This document shows, piece after piece, positions 5,366 through 31,752 of a stretch of 35,372 bases of DNA (within the stretch, counting starts at the first letter, position 1; every line of letters starts with the position of its first letter). The stretch is from the IMG/VR virus record IMGVR_UViG_3300005664_000021, positions 1 through 35,372 of that record. The stretch is one strand, 5' to 3'. Below the pieces are notes generated by a model. That model was not told the DNA's origin and did not search any database. It worked only from the letters and a program-made list of their open reading frames with translations. The position numbers and the translations under genes were made by a program. The DNA comes from a virus.

Positions 5366-5812
5366 TTACTGTATTTCGTGAATATATGGCGGGTTACTTT
5401 CATCATTCCAATATACCGAATCATATGGCATCCCATTTGCACCCCTTGAATATTGATTTATAGGCTCCATTATATATGTTTTATTCTTACCTAAAATTCC
5501 GGTTCCGTAAAGAATAGTGATAATTGTAAATGAAATGCCAATGAACCATTTAAGATTAGTATTCGCTTTGTCTAATGTTTTTCTTTCGGCTTCGATTCCT
5601 ACCATGAAATCATTGATACCGTGTATTGCCGTCTTTAAATCGCTTGTTTGATTCTTTAACTCCTCAGTGCTTACCCTCAACTCTGTTACTGTTGTAATTA
5701 GTCCTTTTTGCCCATTATCGTATAAAGCATGGTTAATATGTTTAACCGATTCGGAAAGTTTTACAATGTTTTCCATTTGATCGCAAATGTGAGTAGAGGC
5801 TTTAGCTGTCAT
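5366..5812 (-). CDS. Membrane-anchored coiled-coil protein, lysis module (148 aa)
   Basis: Residues about 10-85 are helical with heptad-like Leu/Val/Ile spacing. One transmembrane helix follows (WFIGISFTIITILYGTGIL, about 89-107), and then a polar tail. This resembles phage proteins placed between holin and endolysin genes, which act as holin partners or minor membrane proteins. It is not a typical spanin because there is no lipobox. Its position between holin (5839-6051) and endolysin suggests a role in lysis timing; this is inference. Confidence 0.6.
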   Translation of the reverse strand: MTAKASTHICDQMENIVKLSESVKHINHALYDNGQKGLITTVTELRVSTEELKNQTSDLKTAIHGINDFMVGIEAERKTLDKANTNLKWFIGISFTIITILYGTGILGKNKTYIMEPINQYSRGANGMPYDSVYWNDESNPPYIHEIQ

Positions 5813-5838
5813 TGTGAGAGAGTTATAAGGTTCATAAA

Positions 5839-6051
5839 TTATTCAGCTTTCAAGAGCTGATCTTTTGAGTTTGTAAACAGGTTCTTAACAAGGTAACTAA
5901 GCAATGCAATAGCAGATGCAATAGCTAACTTTTTCCAGTCTATTTCAGGCGATTGTAGTTCTGTTAAGAATGTTAATACACCTGTAATAATAGCAAGTAT
6001 AAGACCTTTAAAGAAGTCGTTTAGATGCAGTTTGAATAGTTTTGATTTCAT
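5839..6051 (-). CDS. Holin (70 aa)
   Basis: A short protein with two hydrophobic helices (FKGLILAIITGVLTFLTEL and WKKLAIASAIALLSYLVKNLF), a charged N-terminus and a Lys-rich C-terminal tail. Size, topology and position next to an endolysin cassette are those of class II phage holins, which form inner-membrane lesions that trigger lysis. The start is preceded by a T/A-rich leader with no Shine-Dalgarno. Confidence 0.7.
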   Translation of the reverse strand: MKSKLFKLHLNDFFKGLILAIITGVLTFLTELQSPEIDWKKLAIASAIALLSYLVKNLFTNSKDQLLKAE

Positions 6052-6101: not shown

Positions 6102-8171
6102 CTATTTATATTCTATGAACTGTTTCGCTTCTTCGATTGATACAATATCAATATTTTGAGAATTTATATAATCAATTATTTCATCAATAGCATCTTCCAG
6201 TATTTGTCCCCATCCATGCCAAAATATAACTGCCATTCTATTATCAAGACATAAATCAACTTGATTTTTTACATTTTGAATTTGTGTGGCATTATCCACT
6301 TGATCGACAAGATAAGGCTCGTCTAAATCAAGTGCTATTGAATTAATTCTATACAGATCAATTATCTCTGGATTTGTTGTGTAAACTGACCCTCCCCCTG
6401 CCGTTGGAGTACCCCAAGCAAACATAGTATCAAATCCTAATTTATGGGTGTAATAAGCCATCTGTGGCCCTTGACCGCTATGTCTATTTGCCACGTAATT
6501 ATCGCAGGGCAAACCATACGATAACTGAGTTGCCTTTGCTGTAATTAATTCAGATTCTAATGTAGCTTCTCCATCATTATAATCAACATCATAATTATTA
6601 TGACATGCAATGACAACACCTTCAGAATGCATTGATTGAAGCTGTGGCCAAGAGGCTAATGTAGATGTTAAGGTTTCTACATAAGTGCCGACCTGTGCAG
6701 CATGAATGCCACAGACAAACGATGATACATTTTTACTCTTTAAGAAAGGCCACCATTTTGTATATGAGTCTTCATATCCGTCATCTATCCTTAATACTAC
6801 CATTGGTTTAGTTGTTTTCAAATAACCCAACTGAACGTAATTATTGACATCAAAATCAATAGCTCCTGATGTTTTAATTGCTGCGAAAATATCTTTGGTG
6901 TAGGTTAATATTTTTTGGTGTTCTAATCCTTTGTGGTCAGTAGTATAAAGTATTACTTCTGTTAAGAATTTCCTATCCCATCTCTCGACTGAATTATCGG
7001 TAAATTTAACAGCTAATCTACCTTTATAATCGGGTTTAAGCCAAGATAGTAAAGTCCTCTGATTTAATTCTGTAACATGAAAATCTTTAACATTTGAAGC
7101 GTCATAATAACCAAGTCTTGCGGCATCTTCCCAAATGGTTGCATTTGACCTATCAAAAAAAGCATTTGTAAATCTTATTTTTGAATCATTAATTGCGTTT
7201 ACTGTCTTTGAATTAGATGAATGTTCATCAACCAATCTATATTGAGTTAAAATTCCACCAACTGCCGTAAAGTCAATAGGTATTAATGACCCATCATATT
7301 TATAACCGACATATCTTTTAATTTCTGTTGAATCAATTTCATTTATCTGATATTCATTAAAACCATAATCAAGCAAATAATTATTGATGCTTGTATAATA
7401 TTTATGAGTTTCAACTAATCCAACAGATCTATTCAAATGCAAAATATTTTCAGATATATCAACTCCTGAAAGTATATGCGGATAGTGCATTTGCAAATCA
7501 GTAACATAAGTTTCATCAATACAATTAGCTAATGTCTTTAACGCATTAAACTTTTTGAAATTTGATACTACTGAATAATTACACGTGAATGTAAAGTTAC
7601 CGGCATTATTATTTGTGTTAAAAACAAACAAGGATAAGTCAGCAGTCTGCGTATGTATTTGCGTTCCGTTAGGTTCGTAGGTAGTAATTACGCAATTTTT
7701 TGCAGCGTAATCAAATCTCACTAGAACATGAACATATTCATACACCTTATAAAGATTGGCAGTCGTTGTAAGATTATTATTTTTAGTTGTTACCCCATCT
7801 GAGCATCTTACTGATAAGGATGTAAAGTTCCAAAAGAATTTAAAAATTCTTCCAGAAGTACCACAATTAAATATTTCCCTTGCAGTATCTCCTGGGATGT
7901 CAGCTACTTGTTTAAATCTAAAATATATTGTATGATTATTACCATCATAAATATGTTCTTGGACTCTTGTCTTATCCCCATATATTGTTTTTACATTATC
8001 TCCATAAAATTCTGATAGTAATATAGTAGCCTTAGCTTCACCACTTACAGAATCAATCAAAGAACTACCTGACCTAATAGATAAATCTTCAAGTAAATCA
8101 CTCTTAAATGGTATAGTCCCGTTACGACTGCCCGATCTTCCAAACCTACTATGTAAACTTCTTATTGGCAT
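6102..8171 (-). CDS. Tail spike/fibre with polysaccharide deacetylase domain (689 aa)
   Basis: Residues about 455-689 form a NodB-type (carbohydrate esterase 4) domain: RIDDG at 461-465 (motif 1), H524 in ACHNNYD (motif 2), NRHSGQGP at 563-570 (motif 3) and WHGW at 651-654 (late His motif). Family members remove N- or O-acetyl groups from chitooligosaccharide-like, capsule or peptidoglycan sugars using a metal ion. Residues about 1-230 look like a beta-sandwich (LamG/concanavalin-like) virion-attachment or binding region, and 230-455 is an unassigned linker. Its position between connector and lysis genes fits a receptor-binding tail protein that modifies host capsule or LPS. Motif 2 lacks the usual HxxxH spacing, so activity is uncertain. 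Confidence 0.75.
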   Translation of the reverse strand: MPIRSLHSRFGRSGSRNGTIPFKSDLLEDLSIRSGSSLIDSVSGEAKATILLSEFYGDNVKTIYGDKTRVQEHIYDGNNHTIYFRFKQVADIPGDTAREIFNCGTSGRIFKFFWNFTSLSVRCSDGVTTKNNNLTTTANLYKVYEYVHVLVRFDYAAKNCVITTYEPNGTQIHTQTADLSLFVFNTNNNAGNFTFTCNYSVVSNFKKFNALKTLANCIDETYVTDLQMHYPHILSGVDISENILHLNRSVGLVETHKYYTSINNYLLDYGFNEYQINEIDSTEIKRYVGYKYDGSLIPIDFTAVGGILTQYRLVDEHSSNSKTVNAINDSKIRFTNAFFDRSNATIWEDAARLGYYDASNVKDFHVTELNQRTLLSWLKPDYKGRLAVKFTDNSVERWDRKFLTEVILYTTDHKGLEHQKILTYTKDIFAAIKTSGAIDFDVNNYVQLGYLKTTKPMVVLRIDDGYEDSYTKWWPFLKSKNVSSFVCGIHAAQVGTYVETLTSTLASWPQLQSMHSEGVVIACHNNYDVDYNDGEATLESELITAKATQLSYGLPCDNYVANRHSGQGPQMAYYTHKLGFDTMFAWGTPTAGGGSVYTTNPEIIDLYRINSIALDLDEPYLVDQVDNATQIQNVKNQVDLCLDNRMAVIFWHGWGQILEDAIDEIIDYINSQNIDIVSIEEAKQFIEYK

Positions 8172-20457: not shown

Positions 20458-20994
20458 TTAATGATGCTTAGCACTATAAATCTTTCGTAACCTGTCTTCA
20501 TATTCATACGTTACTTTGTTTAATTTAAGCTTTGTATATATCATGTTAAACGGCAAGGCTTCGATAGCGTCATACTTCAATGGGTCGCCACCTGCCAAGC
20601 GGTCAATAGTTGTAAATACCCCAAACTCTGAAAAGGTATCAATGCCGGCAGCCTCTTCCTCTCCACTCGGTGCAATGTAAAGCGTCTTTAATATCTCTTC
20701 AATATCTTTGACCTCATTTTGAATCCAATTGTAGAATGCAAATACCTCATGCCAATATCTTTGCTTTACTTTCTTACCCATTACGAATTCGCAGATGTAA
20801 TCCATTTCAGGCAGGTTAATCTCTTTGTTAAACAACATAAGAAGCTCCATAACCTTTCCGTACTTCATTTCGCGTAAAGGCTCAACTCCGAATGAGTTAG
20901 GAGTTATTAACAGACCTGTTGTGATATAGAAGTTTATATCATCTATTTCGAGCTTGTCGAGATCGGCAAACTTACAGTTATTAAATTCTATCAT
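20458..20994 (-). CDS. Hypothetical packaging-module protein, possible assembly chaperone (178 aa)
   Basis: Mostly helical soluble protein. The C-terminal part (IDTFSEFGVFTTIDRLAGGD--KYD-IEALPFNMIYTKLKLNKV) resembles phage proteins of the tail-assembly-chaperone type. They usually precede the tape measure gene, but here it follows terL with a 4-base overlap. I cannot confirm the family. It could instead be a terminase accessory or head-completion protein. Confidence 0.45.
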   Translation of the reverse strand: MIEFNNCKFADLDKLEIDDINFYITTGLLITPNSFGVEPLREMKYGKVMELLMLFNKEINLPEMDYICEFVMGKKVKQRYWHEVFAFYNWIQNEVKDIEEILKTLYIAPSGEEEAAGIDTFSEFGVFTTIDRLAGGDPLKYDAIEALPFNMIYTKLKLNKVTYEYEDRLRKIYSAKHH

Positions 20995-22298
20995 CTTGCT
21001 CCGGCTAGTTTGGTTGGTACTCTGTTAAGATTCAATTCGTAATACATTCGCATTATAAATACATCGAGCCAGTCAGGCGATCGACCTATAATCTCTTTTA
21101 TCTTTTCCTTTGGTAATATACGTAACTTATTATCTTTATCAACATCGTACGTTTTTAACATACTTAACTCTTCCCTTATTTTTTCAATCTCTGAATCCGG
21201 AAGATCACATTGAATAAAAATATCAGAAGCAAGTTCAGCAAGTTTATAACCGCATTCAGTTTTTAAATTCTGATAAACCGGATTATTAGGCTTTGAGTTA
21301 TTAACAAAACCTTTGCATCTCAACTCATCAACAATACCACCACCAACTCCATCTTCATCGCAAAGGATATCGCTAATCCCTATTTTATGTTTTGTTCTTA
21401 ATGCTTGTATAGAGTTTTTAATATCAACAGTTGATGAAATATTAAAGGCAATGTATTCAATTAACCTTAACCCCTCCCATACAGTTATAATAGCGCGGTC
21501 ACTACCATAACGGGCAATATCAGAAATAATACGCTTCCTTCCGATTGTTACAAAGTCATTACTAAATATATTGTTAATTGTTTCAATATCTATTAAGGTA
21601 GTCGGATCGTCTTCATAGTCCCAATTACCGTCCATTAGACGCGCCTTAGTTGACTTATCCTTTATACCTGCTAACTGATTACCATATTCTTTTTCGGTAA
21701 ATGGATTATCTTTATAAAGGCTTTGAATAAAGCATACATCATCTGGAAGTGATCCGTTTTTATAAGGTATGTAAAAGTTAGTATAAGTCCAGTTTCTTTT
21801 CGGGTTTCCCGTTAATGCTATCGTTGCTTTAACTCCGAGCTTATCGTTCATGTGACGGCCTATCCTTGTTTTCAATACATCATAAGCAAGGAAATGAATC
21901 TCTCCGCACTCTTCAATTGCCCCGTCTGTATATTCAACAGATCCGAACCGTTCATAAAGCGGATCAGATGGAAGGTAAGCAACATCTAACAGATCAATAC
22001 GGGAACCATTAGTAAACTCGATATAGTTGTATTGTCCGTTTAACTTCCAAAGTGATTGCGGTATGTTATGCCATTTACATACCTTGCACCAAGTAAGGTA
22101 AGTACTCGACATAAGACGCTTCAATTGTTCGCGCGCAATGAATGTTTTATAACCCGGATAAAGTAAGCAGTTTATTAATCGAGTTTCGCAAAGCCACCAA
22201 GATTTACCGCCTCCGGCTCCGCCACCAAAGAATACGACTGAGAATTTTTTGAGTGCCTCATTCGCTAGGTGTTGCTTCCATGTTGGTTGCAGGGTCAT
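20991..22298 (-). CDS. terL: Terminase large subunit (435 aa)
   Basis: ATPase domain first: Walker A GGGAGGGKS at residues 25-33 and Walker B region EYTDGAIEECGE at 122-133 (D125, E129/E130), with a TGNP coupling element at 163-166. The nuclease domain follows with acidic residues at D260 (SDIARYGSD), D314/D316 (CDEDGVGGG) and D409 (SPDWLD). The length is normal for this family. It packages DNA into proheads and cuts concatemers. It overlaps terS by 41 bases and the next gene by 4. Confidence 0.95.
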   Translation of the reverse strand: MTLQPTWKQHLANEALKKFSVVFFGGGAGGGKSWWLCETRLINCLLYPGYKTFIAREQLKRLMSSTYLTWCKVCKWHNIPQSLWKLNGQYNYIEFTNGSRIDLLDVAYLPSDPLYERFGSVEYTDGAIEECGEIHFLAYDVLKTRIGRHMNDKLGVKATIALTGNPKRNWTYTNFYIPYKNGSLPDDVCFIQSLYKDNPFTEKEYGNQLAGIKDKSTKARLMDGNWDYEDDPTTLIDIETINNIFSNDFVTIGRKRIISDIARYGSDRAIITVWEGLRLIEYIAFNISSTVDIKNSIQALRTKHKIGISDILCDEDGVGGGIVDELRCKGFVNNSKPNNPVYQNLKTECGYKLAELASDIFIQCDLPDSEIEKIREELSMLKTYDVDKDNKLRILPKEKIKEIIGRSPDWLDVFIMRMYYELNLNRVPTKLAGAR

Positions 22299-22572
22299 TT
22301 GGTATGATGTAGTTTATTTTTGTGATTGCAATGGATTGGTCATTTGAAGTAATATCAGTTTTCTTAGGTAACACATAAGTAAACAACTTAGAACACGCAT
22401 CGAGATACTTGCCAGGATCATTCTCTTTAACTTCCTGTAAAGCCTCTTTAATATTATCGACCTGACCAAGCAGAACCTGCTCAAGTAGTTCCTTAGCTTC
22501 TTTGGTAGTTCTTGAAACCGCCCCGACTGGTTTACCTGCCGGATTACCTGATTCACCTTTCTTGAATGGCAT
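22258..22572 (-). CDS. terS: Terminase small subunit-like protein (104 aa)
   Basis: Starts MPFKKGESGNPAGKPVGAVSRT, the DUF5681-like basic N-terminus common in phage small terminases and their homologues (FKKG-SGNP-GRP-G). A helix for oligomerisation (about 25-70) follows. It overlaps terL, as small and large terminase genes usually do. It recognises phage DNA and hands it to TerL. A consensus promoter lies 24 bases upstream of the start (22596-22627). Confidence 0.75.
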   Translation of the reverse strand: MPFKKGESGNPAGKPVGAVSRTTKEAKELLEQVLLGQVDNIKEALQEVKENDPGKYLDACSKLFTYVLPKKTDITSNDQSIAITKINYIIPNDPATNMEATPSE

Positions 22573-22638: not shown

Positions 22639-22920
22639 AGCTTACCACTGTAACTGATATTTTTTTTCGCCAGTAAGCTGACAAAGGCTTATAAACATTG
22701 AGAAAGCTTACCCGTAACTGGATTTTTACATAAATTAGTTTTTTTTATCATATAGAATCTTAGAATATAATACTACAATACTAATTTATATATGATTTAT
22801 ATAATCTCAGTAAGCTTTCTCAATGGTAGTAAGGGTTTATCAGCTTACTGGTTTAAATTATTTCAGTTTGCACTCAGTAAGCTATTCAATGTTTATAGTA
22901 CTTTAAATGCTTACAGTAAA
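22639..22920. repeat. Cluster of CAGTAAGCT-type repeats; candidate origin or operator region
   Basis: Perfect CAGTAAGCT occurs at 22671, 22808 and 22875, and its complement AGCTTACTG at 22842-22850. Partial copies sit at 22639 (AGCTTACC), 22704-22711 and 22909-22919. A 16-bp perfect inverted repeat (CATTGAGAAAGCTTAC at 22696-22711 against GTAAGCTTTCTCAATG at 22810-22825) spans about 100 bases of very A+T-rich DNA. A second repeat, AGCTTACC...GTAACTG, occurs at 22639-22657 and 22705-22720. Iterons beside an A+T-rich stretch upstream of a primase-helicase gene are the usual form of a phage origin. Repressor operators are the alternative. No gene is seen in 22573-23096. Confidence 0.6.
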
Positions 22921-22959: not shown

Positions 22960-22967
22960 TATCTTTG
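22960..22967 (+). promoter_or_regulatory. Promoter -7 element for the primase-helicase transcript
   Basis: TATCTTTG matches TAnnTTTG. The -33 region is weak, with no TTG at 19-21 bases upstream, so activation by a protein bound to the adjacent repeats is possible. The predicted transcription start (about 22972-22976) falls just before the first paired base of the structured leader at 22978. Confidence 0.55.
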
Positions 22968-22977
22968 TAATTCAATC

Positions 22978-23080
22978 AGCACCACTCATGTATAATAATA
23001 AAGATTTTTAGCTCATTAGATCGGATAACGATACTCGCCTCGGGTGGTGCTTAGGCTTATTGTGTCCGGTCTTTTGAGCT
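22978..23080 (+). ncRNA. Structured 5' leader with crossing stems (pseudoknot or switch)
   Basis: Stem P1 is 10 bp: AGCACCACTC (22978-22987) with GGGTGGTGCT (23042-23051), one G-U. Stem P2 has 16 pairs in two blocks of 6 and 10 around two T-T mismatches: 23010-23027 with 23063-23080. The 5' strand of P2 lies in the loop of P1, and the 3' strand of P1 lies in the loop of P2, so the stems cross. Linkers are 22, 14 and 11 nt. Either both form as an H-type pseudoknot or they are alternatives in a switch. It ends 16 bases before the primase-helicase ATG. No known class is recognised. Confidence 0.6.
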
Positions 23081-23096
23081 TTATATACATAGTATC

Positions 23097-25307
23097 ATGA
23101 AAAGAAAATTGTATGATAATTTTAGAATCTTTCCGGTAGAAGGTGGAAAAGACAAAGCCCCTTTATTAATTCGTGATAAGAATAATGATCCTATAATAAA
23201 AAAGGATGGTACTCCCATGCGCTATACATGGAGCAAGGTTGTAAAGAATAAATGTGAATGGTCTGAAATAGATCGCTATTCATATTTTGGTGTTTGTGGT
23301 GGTGTTGATGGATTAGAGATAATTGATGTAGATAACAAATTTCATGATGCAGTTGAGTTATTTAAATTTATTAAAGATAATTTTGATTTAACTGGCTTTT
23401 TAATTATTGGAACGCAAAGCGGAGGTTTCCATATATATTATAGGTGTCCTAATCCAATGGGAAACTTAAAATTAGCTATGCGACAAGGCACTGAAAATAT
23501 ACCGGGCAAAGCTAAGAAAGAAGTAATTACCTTAGTAGAAACGCGTGGTGTAGGTGGTTATGTAGTATTTTATGATAATATTCTACAAGGTAGTATTGAA
23601 ACAGTTCCAACAATAACAACCGAGCAAAGGGATGAATTATTAACTATTTGCCGGGCTTTGAATGAGGTTGAGGATAAGAAAGCACATGAGCCAAAGATTG
23701 AAATTAATGATAATGCAGAAGCACCTGGCAATAGTTACAATAATGATTATTCAAGTATAGCAGAAACAAAACAAATTCTTTTAAATGCAGGTTGGGTTGC
23801 TCAGGGCGATTATTATTGGAGAAGACCGGGTAAGACCGATTTAGGTATAAGTGCCTCATTTGGAAAAGTAGGAAAGAATAAGTTTTACGTTTTTTCAAGT
23901 AACGCCTCGCCATTTGATATGCAATGTTCATATAGTATGTTTGCTGTAAGGGCTTATTTGCTACATAATAAAGATTTTTCAGAGTGCGGTAAGGAGTTAT
24001 TTGAAAGATATAACCCGGGTAAAAAAAGAAGTGAAAAGAAAAAGAAACCTGAAAGTAATATTAAAGAGCCTAAGAATCAATATGAAGTGTTACAAAACAT
24101 TTTTAATGAATGGAATATAAAAGTAAGAAAAAATTTACTTATTGGTAATATCGAATTTCAGCGTGACGGATCTGATTGGGATAATAACTTCGATGTTTTA
24201 GTAGGTGATATTATGGTAGAGATGGAAACAAGCAGATTTACCAAAGTTAAAGATGAATGGAAACCTGTAAGAATATCAAAGAATAAAATCAATGATATTT
24301 TACTTACCAGTACATTTTGTGAAATGTATAACCCTGTAATTAAGTTTATAAATGAGTTACCCGAATGGGATGGTATTGATAGGTTTGATGAAATGACAAA
24401 ATACATTAATCTTCAAAAGGATGAAGACCCGGTATTTTTTGCCAGTATGTTGAAAAAGCATTTTATCAGGGCTTTTGATAGTATTTACAATGATAATGCA
24501 AATAGATTTGTATTTACTTTATATGGCCCTCAGGAAATTGGTAAAAGTAAATGGGTATCTTGGTTAGTTCCTGCCGAATTATATAATGATGAAATGATTG
24601 ATCCAATTGATAAGGATTCTATATTATCATTAACCCGGTATTTAGTAAAGAATATTGATGAACTTGATGATTTGGATAAAAAAGAGGTTGCTCATTTAAA
24701 GGCTTTCATAAGTAAAGGTGATGTGACAAAGCGTGTGAGTTATGGCAGATTTGACCAGAAGCATAAGAGAATAGCTACATTATTCGCATCAACAAATAAA
24801 AGTGATATTCTGGTAGATGTCAGTAATACAAGGTGGTTAATATTAAAGGTAAAGAGTTTTGATTGGAGAGGCTATACTGCAAATATGGATAGTAGGTTTT
24901 TATGGAGCCAAGCCTTGTATGAATATAAAAAGAATAAGAACGCCGGTGAGCTTACCGATGCTGAAAAATCTGAAAGAGATATAAGAAATGGTAGAGATTT
25001 CCTAAATATTAATCCTGAACGTGAAATGATTGTAAAGCATTTTAACGAATCGGATTATGGTAATAAATATACAAGCACTGACATTAAGGTATTACTTGAA
25101 AATCAGTATCCCGGTCAAAAGTTAAATTTCACTCAATTAAATAGGGAGTTAAAAAGATTATTCGGTGAACCTATGCAGACACGACATAATGGTATTAATG
25201 GAAGATATTTTAAGTTGAATAGTGATTTGAAAATTGTATCCCGTAGTGAGTACGGTGCGCAAAGTTTTAATGAAGTAGATAAGAAACAAGAAGAAGCACC
25301 TTTTTAA
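23097..25307 (+). CDS. PrimPol-VirE-type primase-helicase (736 aa)
   Basis: N-terminal primase-polymerase domain (about 1-195): catalytic acids D77 and D79 in LEIIDVDNK, H112 in SGGFHIYY, and ETRGVGGYVV at 148-157. A middle domain (about 215-305) has FYVFSSNASPF. The C-terminal VirE/VapE-type ATPase (about 330-640) carries Walker A GPQEIGKSKW (477-486), Walker B NIDELDD (519-525), sensor N566 in ASTNKSD and an arginine in NTRW (R579). It would prime and unwind DNA as the phage replication initiator. It is the first gene of the rightward replication operon, directly after the repeat cluster and the structured leader. Confidence 0.9.
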   Translation: MKRKLYDNFRIFPVEGGKDKAPLLIRDKNNDPIIKKDGTPMRYTWSKVVKNKCEWSEIDRYSYFGVCGGVDGLEIIDVDNKFHDAVELFKFIKDNFDLTGFLIIGTQSGGFHIYYRCPNPMGNLKLAMRQGTENIPGKAKKEVITLVETRGVGGYVVFYDNILQGSIETVPTITTEQRDELLTICRALNEVEDKKAHEPKIEINDNAEAPGNSYNNDYSSIAETKQILLNAGWVAQGDYYWRRPGKTDLGISASFGKVGKNKFYVFSSNASPFDMQCSYSMFAVRAYLLHNKDFSECGKELFERYNPGKKRSEKKKKPESNIKEPKNQYEVLQNIFNEWNIKVRKNLLIGNIEFQRDGSDWDNNFDVLVGDIMVEMETSRFTKVKDEWKPVRISKNKINDILLTSTFCEMYNPVIKFINELPEWDGIDRFDEMTKYINLQKDEDPVFFASMLKKHFIRAFDSIYNDNANRFVFTLYGPQEIGKSKWVSWLVPAELYNDEMIDPIDKDSILSLTRYLVKNIDELDDLDKKEVAHLKAFISKGDVTKRVSYGRFDQKHKRIATLFASTNKSDILVDVSNTRWLILKVKSFDWRGYTANMDSRFLWSQALYEYKKNKNAGELTDAEKSERDIRNGRDFLNINPEREMIVKHFNESDYGNKYTSTDIKVLLENQYPGQKLNFTQLNRELKRLFGEPMQTRHNGINGRYFKLNSDLKIVSRSEYGAQSFNEVDKKQEEAPF

Positions 25308-28935: not shown

Positions 28936-29578
28936 AGCCAGTCAATGTCATTCGATAATGGCAAACGGTAAAGGCGGTAACTTATCGGTCGGAACAGTTA
29001 CATTTTTACAGAACTGGTATAAAGAGCAACTTTACGAACGTCGGAAAGAGTTCAAATCGAAGTACTGCGATAAAGGTACGGAAGTTGAGCAGATAAGTAT
29101 TGATTTCATTGCTGAACAGTTAGGATTGGGAATGATATTTAAGAATGAGCAATACTTTGAGAATGAGTTTATCTCAGGCACTCCAGATGTGGTAATTGAC
29201 CAGGTTATTGAGGTTAAAAACGCATGGGATTGTTTTACCTTCCCCTTGTTCGATACCGATCCTGATAATAAATATTACTATCAGTGCCAATGCTATCTTG
29301 ACTTAACAGGGCTTCAAAAAGCTACCTTATGCCATACGCTAATGAACACCCCTTCCGAAATCGTTTCCCGTGAAATGCAATACGCTTCGGAAGATGATTA
29401 TGATGCTATCATGGCAAAGCATAACTACGATAACATACCAGCTCGCTATCGTATCAAAACGTTTGAAATCGAACGGAATCAGGAACTAATCGATGCTATT
29501 CATGTCAGGGTTGCTGAGTGTCGGGAGTATCTGAAAGGATTGGATCGCATCTTTAACGATGGAGGGGAGGCGGTATGA
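28910..29578 (+). CDS. YqaJ/lambda-exonuclease-type nuclease (222 aa)
   Basis: PD-(D/E)XK fold residues are visible: SGTPDVVID (the Asp), then QVIEVKNAWDCF (E and K), then a Gln in YYYQCQCYLDL. This is the order of YqaJ or lambda-Red-alpha-like exonucleases, which digest one strand of duplex DNA for recombination. ATG 28910 (MKQNLFKIRASQCHS) is preferred over a TTG at 28871. It overlaps the next gene (SNF2 helicase) by ATGA. Confidence 0.75.
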   Translation: MKQNLFKIRASQCHSIMANGKGGNLSVGTVTFLQNWYKEQLYERRKEFKSKYCDKGTEVEQISIDFIAEQLGLGMIFKNEQYFENEFISGTPDVVIDQVIEVKNAWDCFTFPLFDTDPDNKYYYQCQCYLDLTGLQKATLCHTLMNTPSEIVSREMQYASEDDYDAIMAKHNYDNIPARYRIKTFEIERNQELIDAIHVRVAECREYLKGLDRIFNDGGEAV

Positions 29579-31752
29579 ACTATCAGGAGTTTTTACAGAC
29601 TAAACGAAAAACAGTAATAGAGTCTGGATTTGAAGTTAAAGAATTGAATACCCATTTATTCCCGTTTCAGGAGTTTATTGTTAAACGAGCCTTAAAAGCA
29701 GGTAAATACGCAATATTTGCCGATACCGGATTAGGTAAAACAATCATGCAACTTGAATGGGCGCATCGTGTAAACTTGCATACTAAAAAGCCTGTGTTAA
29801 TACTTGCACCTTTAGCGGTTAATTTACAGAGCATTGAAGAAGGTAGTAAGTTTAATATCGAAGTCAATCGATACGGTAAAGGACAAATACAGATAACCAA
29901 TTATGAGCAAATTGATAATATTGATTTCTCATTATTTGGAGGTGTTGTACTTGATGAAAGTTCTATCTTAAAAAATGAGATGGGAAAATACAGGAATAAG
30001 ATAATTGAACTTTGTAAATCAATCCCTTATAAGTTAGCGTGTACTGCGACCCCAAGCCCGAACGATCCGATGGAGTTGGGTAATCATTCAGAGTTTTTAG
30101 ACGTTATGAACTATAATGAGATGCTTGCAATGTATTTCATTCATGACGGTGGCGAAACTGCTAAATGGAGATTAAAAGGTCATGCAGTTGAGAAGTTTTA
30201 CGAGTTTGTCAGCTCATGGGCTATTATGTTAATGAAGCCCTCCGATATTGGATTTGAGCAATCAGGATATGATTTACCGCCTTTGAAACTTCATGAGATT
30301 GAAGTAAAAACAGAAACGCCCGAAGGTATGTTATTCGGAGGTTTAGCAGTAAATGCAACCGATTTTAACAAGAGTTTAAGAAGTACAGAAGCTTTAAGAG
30401 TTAGTAAAGTTATTGATATTGTTCGCACTATCGGAAATGAACAAATAATTATCTGGTGCAAACAGAATGAAGAAGCGAGTAACATTTATAAAATACTTAC
30501 TCAGTCAGGATATGATTGCAGAAACATACAAGGATCTGATTCACCTGAGAAAAAAGAGCAAGGATTAATAGATTTTGCTCATGGTGTTTATCAGATTTTG
30601 ATTACTAAAACTCAGATTGCATCAATGGGTTTGAACTTTCAAAACTGCCATTATCAGATATTTTCTTCAATAGATTTCTCATTTGAAAGTACATATCAAG
30701 CCATGCGAAGATCATACAGGTTCGGACAAACTAAGGAAGTAAATGTTTGGATGATTACTACTGATAGAATGATTAACGTGATTAAGTCAATTCACGACAA
30801 AGAAAAATCATTCAAAAAAATGCAAAAAGAAATGACACTTTGTATTGTTAAACATTTAAATAACGAAATAATGACAAGTAATGATTTTCAGGAAGATGTA
30901 AAAACAGATTCCTACCATGTTATGTTAGGTGACTGTGTAAGCAGGTCAAAAGAAGTAAAAGATAACTCAGTTGATTTGTCGGTATTTTCTCCGCCTTTCG
31001 CATCGTTATATACGTATTCTTCTCATAATGAAGACATGGGAAACTCAACAAACTTCGATGAGTTTGGTGAACATTTCAAGTTTTTAATTCCTGAACTTAA
31101 AAGAGTATTAAAGCCGGGGCGTATTTGTGCGGTTCATTGTATGGATTTACCTATTCAAAAAGGTAAAGAAGGATATATCGGTTTACGTGATTTCTCAGGT
31201 ATGTTAATCCAATGGTTCCAAGAATGCGGATTTATTTATCATTCACGTATTGCGATTTGGAAAGATCCCGTTGTTGAAATGCAAAGAACTAAGGCTCTCG
31301 GATTGCTTCATAAACAGTTAAAGAAGGATTCTGTAATGTCAAGAGTTGGATTGCCTGATTATGTTTTGATATTCAGAAATGAAGGAGAAAATGAGATACC
31401 AATTTCAAATGTGAATATTCCGGTTGAGTACTGGCAGAAAATCGCATCCCCTGTTTGGATGGATATTGATTACGGTAATACGTTAAATTACAGAGCCGGC
31501 AAAGATCAGAATGATGAAAAGCATATTTGTCCACTTCAACTTGATACCATTGAAAGATTAATTTTACTTTATTCTAATGAAGGAGAAACTGTTTTTAGTC
31601 CTTTTGGAGGTATCGGTTCAGAAGGTTTTCAGGCTCTTAAAATGAAGCGTAAATCAATCAGTATTGAGTTGAAAGAATCGTATTTCAATCTAAATTGTGT
31701 AAATCATAGAGGGGCTTATGAAGATAGTTTTTCACTTAAACTGGAACTATAA
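29575..31752 (+). CDS. SNF2-type helicase fused to a DNA methyltransferase (725 aa)
   Basis: Residues 1-430 are an SF2/SNF2 translocase: motif I FADTGLGKT (48-56), motif II LDESS (126-130, Asp-Glu of the DEAH box), motif III CTATP (156-160) and motif VI QAMRRSYRFGQ (375-385). Residues about 445-725 are a DNA methyltransferase of the beta type: catalytic FSPPF (471-475) comes first and the SAM-binding VFSPFGGIG (673-681) is near the C-terminus. The order IV then I defines the beta group (N4-cytosine or N6-adenine). No nuclease domain is inside, but a VRR-NUC gene overlaps its stop by one base. It may translocate along DNA and methylate it as an anti-restriction or replication-linked factor. 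Confidence 0.85.
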   Translation: MNYQEFLQTKRKTVIESGFEVKELNTHLFPFQEFIVKRALKAGKYAIFADTGLGKTIMQLEWAHRVNLHTKKPVLILAPLAVNLQSIEEGSKFNIEVNRYGKGQIQITNYEQIDNIDFSLFGGVVLDESSILKNEMGKYRNKIIELCKSIPYKLACTATPSPNDPMELGNHSEFLDVMNYNEMLAMYFIHDGGETAKWRLKGHAVEKFYEFVSSWAIMLMKPSDIGFEQSGYDLPPLKLHEIEVKTETPEGMLFGGLAVNATDFNKSLRSTEALRVSKVIDIVRTIGNEQIIIWCKQNEEASNIYKILTQSGYDCRNIQGSDSPEKKEQGLIDFAHGVYQILITKTQIASMGLNFQNCHYQIFSSIDFSFESTYQAMRRSYRFGQTKEVNVWMITTDRMINVIKSIHDKEKSFKKMQKEMTLCIVKHLNNEIMTSNDFQEDVKTDSYHVMLGDCVSRSKEVKDNSVDLSVFSPPFASLYTYSSHNEDMGNSTNFDEFGEHFKFLIPELKRVLKPGRICAVHCMDLPIQKGKEGYIGLRDFSGMLIQWFQECGFIYHSRIAIWKDPVVEMQRTKALGLLHKQLKKDSVMSRVGLPDYVLIFRNEGENEIPISNVNIPVEYWQKIASPVWMDIDYGNTLNYRAGKDQNDEKHICPLQLDTIERLILLYSNEGETVFSPFGGIGSEGFQALKMKRKSISIELKESYFNLNCVNHRGAYEDSFSLKLEL

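Follow-up and report, generated by a model that had tools for sequence, protein, structure and literature searches.

Upstream of the primase-helicase gene of a virus genome, the short leader that follows a promoter can pair with itself in two crossing stems. The locus raises the question of whether this leader is a genuine structured RNA, and of what it might do for the gene that follows. To our knowledge, little is known of replication-gene control in Bacteroidota phages, and we know of no such element described for their Prim-Pol/VapE replication module. A conserved leader able to form a pseudoknot ahead of a Prim-Pol/VapE operon would represent a testable case of RNA-level control of phage replication.

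Position and helices of the leader

The window analyzed here is the whole of virus record IMGVR_UViG_3300005664_000021 (35,372 bases, GC 36%). Judging from its TAnnTTTG promoter boxes and from the relatives of its terminase, which belong to Bacteroides, Polaribacter, Flavobacterium and Cellulophaga phages, it lies among Bacteroidota phages. The leader is intergenic. On one side is a leftward structural and packaging block, including the terminase large subunit (20991-22298, PF04466) and a DUF5681 gene (22258-22572); on the other, a rightward block begins at 23097. The gene directly downstream of the leader (23097-25307, plus strand) encodes a 736-aa protein combining a Prim-Pol domain (PF09250, E 2.4e-6) with a VapE-like helicase (PF05272, E 1.1e-31), and its PHROG assignment is DNA helicase/primase. 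The rightward block covers about 12 kb, nearly all on the plus strand, and the leader is predicted to be its first transcribed part. At 29575-31752, a DEAD/Helicase_C helicase and an N6/N4 DNA methylase are fused in one 725-aa protein, and a phosphoadenosine phosphosulfate reductase-like gene (PF01507, 34293-35243) closes the block.

Both stems proposed in the initial annotation were recovered, in the crossing order 5' P1, 5' P2, 3' P1, 3' P2. P1 consists of ten consecutive pairs, one of them U-G, between AGCACCACUC (22978-22987, AGCACCACTC on the plus strand) and GGGUGGUGCU (23042-23051). P2 joins AGCUCA-UU-AGAUCGGAUA (23010-23027) to UGUCCGGUCU-UU-UGAGCU (23063-23080) by 16 pairs, with a 2x2 UU/UU internal loop; its 5' strand can be read as AGCUCA, UU, AGAUCGGA and UA. 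The linker between P1 and P2, L1, measures 22 nt in the window (22988-23009) and about 18 nt in the related contig L004. A 16-nt spacer, UUAUAUACAUAGUAUC, separates P2 from the start codon. Two further helices, absent from the initial annotation, were recognized within the P2 hairpin. P2b, a short upper extension of P2, pairs ACGAU (23028-23032) with AUUGU (23059-23063), the last base of which competes with the top P2 pair. Above P2b, the apical helix P3 pairs GCCU (23037-23040) with AGGC (23053-23056) and closes a 12-nt loop holding the whole P1 3' strand, with 1 nt left on the 3' side. In nested folding, the pair probability was 0.97-1.0 for P3, and 0.53 in the window and 0.82 in L004 for P2b. 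Both helices are invariant between the two phages, P2b including a G-U pair.

A -7 promoter box of the TAnnTTTG type, which is that of the Bacteroidota primary sigma factor, was found by pattern match at 22960-22967 on the plus strand (TATCTTTG), and L004 has an equivalent box at the same place (5864-5871, TATATTTG). No TTTG -33 element was recognizable upstream of the window box. The TAnnTTTG consensus is centered at -7 (PMC7366714), which would place the window +1 near 22970-22972. Box and P1 are separated by 10 nt in the window and by 13 nt in L004. Thus, the P1 5' strand is predicted to occupy about +8 to +17, with P1 and P2 wholly within the transcript. The initial annotation had put the start of transcription at the first base pairs of P1; this has to be corrected, since from the position of the box P1 is predicted to begin about 7-8 nt inside the RNA. 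In both phages, P1 and P2 sit between the promoter box and the start codon. A short ORF (22988-23011; ATG TAT AAT AAT AAA GAT TTT TAG) starts right after P1, within L1. Its counterpart in L004 (ATG AAA CTA AAA GAT TTT...) has the same frame relation and runs on into P2; translation into a leader peptide is possible, on weak evidence.

The strength of this arrangement was assayed against dinucleotide shuffles. Crossing helices as strong as P1 and P2 (stem scores of at least 23 and at least 18) occurred in none of 1000 shuffles, and crossing helices at relaxed scores (at least 18 and at least 14) in 102 of 1000. The sense RNA from 22960 to 23110 folded at -41.8 kcal/mol, whereas its shuffles averaged -26.8 (z -4.4), and 0/200 shuffles were as stable. 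The L004 leader displayed the same arrangement, with a z of -3.7.

The initial annotation had left a choice between a pseudoknot and a pair of mutually exclusive folds. Chain lengths indicate that P1 and P2 can coexist as an H-type pseudoknot, L1 being long enough to run along P2. Thus, P1 and P2 need not exclude each other and may form a pseudoknot. A 10-bp P1 inside the P3 loop would be sterically unreasonable; therefore full P1 and P3 probably exclude each other, as alternative states. Nearest-neighbor estimates, in which the pseudoknot is the nested fold plus the P1 duplex plus a penalty of 7-9.6 kcal/mol, gave rough energies of -33 to -35.5 kcal/mol for the pseudoknot, compared with -40 (window) and -39 (L004) for the best nested fold. 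We judge that the method is not accurate enough to resolve this gap, so that either state may form. A helix between L1 and 23081-23096, which could mask the start site, was rejected: it does not stand out in the window, where 183 of 400 shuffles were as stable, and although strong in L004, it pairs different bases in the two phages.

Comparison with a second phage

L004, from IMG/VR, was the sole true relative found among the viral contigs and genome contigs scanned. The scans used the primase (whole or in pieces), the terminase, and motif patterns for P1, P2, the core and P2b/P3. The L004 primase-helicase is 74-77% identical to the window protein (77% over the aligned part), and its leader (5885-5984) presents the same order of elements directly after a TAnnTTTG box. 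The comparative evidence is therefore that of two sequences from one collection. A global mafft alignment of the region misaligned P1 and P2 and was not used for leader identities; these were taken from a structure-guided alignment, fitted by hand to the structure and hence leaning towards it.

In this alignment, both phages retain 32 of the named structure's 33 pairs. All 14 pairs of the P2 core are retained despite seven substitutions, and none is broken. Three of the changes, located in the distal eight pairs, are two-sided (A-U/G-C, G-C/A-U and G-C/U-G) and one is one-sided (U-G/U-A). Shifting the register by 1, 2 or 3 columns loses all two-sided P2 changes each time. When as many substitutions as observed were placed at random on the two P2 arms, all 14 pairs were kept in 80 of 200,000 trials (0.04%), and in 346 of 200,000 (0.17%) with a transition bias. 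The alignment shuffle control gave 63/500 and has little power with two rows; the claim of P2 covariation therefore rests on the substitution simulation.

P1 hardly varies, so its covariation is uninformative either way. Nine of its ten pairs are identical in both phages; L004 lacks the outermost A-U and has an additional G-C at the opposite end. Thus, the compensatory changes by which the initial annotation proposed to judge both stems are present in P2 and absent from the near-invariant P1. In L004, GCACCACTC forms a 9-nt island of identity (5885-5893), preceded by a diverged promoter spacer and followed by a diverged L1 (4/10 identical). Conservation of both arms fits P1 but is no proof of it, as contact with a protein or ligand could conserve the same bases.

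The best-conserved parts of the leader are its loop and junctions. The P1 3' strand lies within a block identical at 20/20 positions, and the two other blocks are identical at 10/10 and 9/9 positions, while the P2 stem covaries. In L1, the first 12 nt have diverged and AAAGATTTT (23000-23008) is identical in both phages. By comparison, identity between the window and L004 is 58% at third codon positions of the adjoining gene and 63% in the upstream repeat region. Conserved loop and junctions on a covarying stem suggest a pattern as in a specific recognition site. This pattern bears on a simpler explanation, in which P1 would pair the extreme 5' end and passively protect the mRNA from decay. 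The predicted 5' end does lie about 7-8 nt ahead of P1, but a plain stem needs neither an invariant 20-nt loop block nor a conserved single-stranded AAAGAUUUU, and we consider passive protection improbable. Altogether, P2 covariation and the extreme conservation of the core bear out the proposal of a structured leader before the Prim-Pol/VapE gene. They indicate that the leader is truly a structured RNA whose core is conserved, and that it very probably serves as a control element.

The folding analysis was also used to compare strands. Antisense RNA folded much more weakly (z -2.1), and the sense strand as single-stranded DNA had a z of -2.3. Wobble pairs are kept in P1 (U-G) and in P2b (G-U). 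These favor the sense strand, because the other strand would have A-C mismatches. The comparison is of interest because the stem-loop might instead act as DNA in a replication origin, where the opened strand would fold and be bound by the Prim-Pol/helicase, with the upstream repeats as iterons. A stem-loop beside a Prim-Pol/helicase gene is found in plasmid pRN1, where it is required for replication, and the same has been proposed for some phages (PMC4234260). The initiator here is of the same kind, a Prim-Pol domain with a helicase, the latter VapE-like. The fold of the single-stranded DNA and a GTAAGCT array immediately upstream in both phages also agree with an origin. However, the sense RNA folds far more strongly than the single-stranded DNA, the kept wobbles favor one strand, and both stems begin just past the promoter box and are complete before the start codon is reached. 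Moreover, the pRN1 stem-loop is about 100 bp long, is found downstream of the gene, functions as DNA, is variable and poorly conserved in sequence, and has no iterons (PMC4234260), whereas the leader forms a 71-nt hairpin upstream of the gene, its loop block (20/20) being the best-conserved part. We therefore regard the DNA origin as unlikely. The pRN1 precedent (PMC4234260) and the upstream array make it a still serious alternative, which, if it held instead, would support the recognition of stem-loops by Prim-Pol replication proteins.

The array itself (22639-22915) contains six exact copies and one partial copy of GTAAGCT/AGCTTAC, in both orientations, and adjoins the promoter on its upstream side in the window as in L004, where seven exact copies are present (5547-5819). 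Outside the arrays, a single stray copy was found in each of the two sequences. The flanks of the repeat core change in concert between the phages, being mostly CAGTAAGCT in the window and CTGTAAGCT in all array copies of L004. This would be expected for sites of one co-evolving DNA-binding protein, and the repeats are candidate origin iterons or operators. An inverted repeat (22670-22851), with 42-nt arms that are 86% complementary and 98 nt apart, overlaps the array.

Possible functions of the leader

The Rfam comparison suggested in the initial annotation was negative: with Rfam 15, no match in the window reached the gathering score, and relaxing the threshold to E 10 around the leader gave four chance-level matches (E 0.13-9.8). 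The known Rfam families were thus rejected, together with an HDV-like ribozyme. If real, the leader would add an RNA family absent from Rfam. A self-cleaving ribozyme with crossing helices of the HDV-like (theta) type is highly improbable. The order of a 5' P1 crossing P2 is shared with these ribozymes, but their nested double pseudoknot, with its own P3, P1.1 and the catalytic C of J4/2, was not recognized in the leader; by inspection of the alignment, neither sequence has a conserved P3 hairpin between P2 and P1 or a J4/2 catalytic C. Theta ribozymes usually adjoin tRNAs, and a tRNA is absent from the window. Gut phages do, however, frequently carry HDV-like theta ribozymes (PMC10879173).

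A ligand-sensing riboswitch, whose binding pocket would be the conserved loop and junctions and whose alternating helices would be P1 and P3, would account for a conserved core on a covarying stem and for the competition of P1 and P3 for one segment. We nevertheless consider it improbable. None of the Rfam matches up to E 10 is meaningful, and an expression platform is lacking, as no intrinsic terminator or attenuator was found near the leader and no start-site helix is supported in the window. In addition, riboswitches are usually found many times, whereas this leader was found twice.

Early phage transcripts can also begin with a structured RNA of another known kind, the putL and putR elements of HK022 (PMC9378689). 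By analogy, the nascent leader might bind RNA polymerase and cause terminators to be read through along a long early operon. The leader is the first transcribed part of the nearly all-plus block of about 12 kb, and putL, of about 70 nt, similarly follows an early promoter at a short distance (PMC9378689). However, put sites consist of two adjacent stem-loops without a crossing stem, whereas the leader is one long interrupted stem crossed by P1. Moreover, the window holds a single copy of the leader, with no second copy detected, and no terminator-like site near it. Antitermination is therefore also unlikely, slightly more so than the DNA origin.

The position of the leader makes control of replication-gene expression plausible, and our leading reading, held tentatively and as somewhat less likely than not, is a cis-acting operator for translation of the primase-helicase, whose conserved core would be recognized by a trans factor. 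P2 is a long hairpin, kept by compensation, with its 3' end 16 nt from the start codon. From complementarity, the 5' end of the transcript may clasp the apical loop of this hairpin through P1, resulting in the H-type pseudoknot, and the P1 clasp and the apical helix P3 could together form the switchable part. The trans factor binding the conserved core would most likely be one of the phage's replication proteins, for example the primase-helicase, and we infer that the P2/P1 fold next to the start codon would tune how primase-helicase translation is initiated. Replication-gene dosage would then be set by an autogenous operator. Because the Bacteroidota hosts do not use Shine-Dalgarno sites, RNA structure around the start codon weighs more; in these bacteria, mRNA structure tunes initiation (PMC6847099).

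The closest working parallel to such an operator is the autogenous operator of gene 32 in phages T4 and RB69, where a leader pseudoknot, such as may form here, precedes a phage DNA-replication gene and where two phages likewise share the structure although their sequences differ (PMC535899). The T4 pseudoknot is about 28 nt long, in contrast to a leader of about 103 nt here. In T4, more than 40 nt of a less structured, UUAAA-rich stretch precede the start codon; here, the spacer is 16 nt and has no UUAAA repeats. Finally, the gene 32 product is a single-stranded DNA-binding protein that binds its own leader, whereas the product here is a Prim-Pol/VapE primase-helicase. Since spacing, UUAAA stretch and encoded protein all differ, the leader is not a member of the gene 32 operator family. 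A bolder proposal, which we consider doubtful, is that it represents a new class of phage RNA switch, in which the extreme 5' end of the mRNA would compete with an inner helix for the apical loop of a long hairpin next to the start codon, thereby coupling primase-helicase synthesis to a replication signal.

The replication module

DNA and protein searches of phages and plasmids returned distant VapE proteins only (about 24-33% identity) and no leader. In 17 relatives of the window terminase (L046-L062), the primase was not encoded in the DNA examined and a leader match was absent. Thus, the leader travels with the replication gene and not with the terminase. Indeed, the large terminases of the window and L004 are 24% identical, that is, unrelated or very distant, and beside them lie DUF5681 genes that are 72% identical. 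These identities place a recombination boundary between the packaging and replication modules at 20991-22572. Within the sequences compared, the leader is restricted to one module common to both phages, which otherwise differ; it comprises the DUF5681 gene, the repeats, the promoter, the leader, the primase-helicase, a small gene and a methyltransferase-like gene. Because the large terminases are unrelated or very distant, this module looks as if it was exchanged as a unit. In L004, codon 556 of the primase-helicase is an in-frame TAA (7666-7668) where the window has a sense codon, which reflects either a real nonsense codon or an assembly error.
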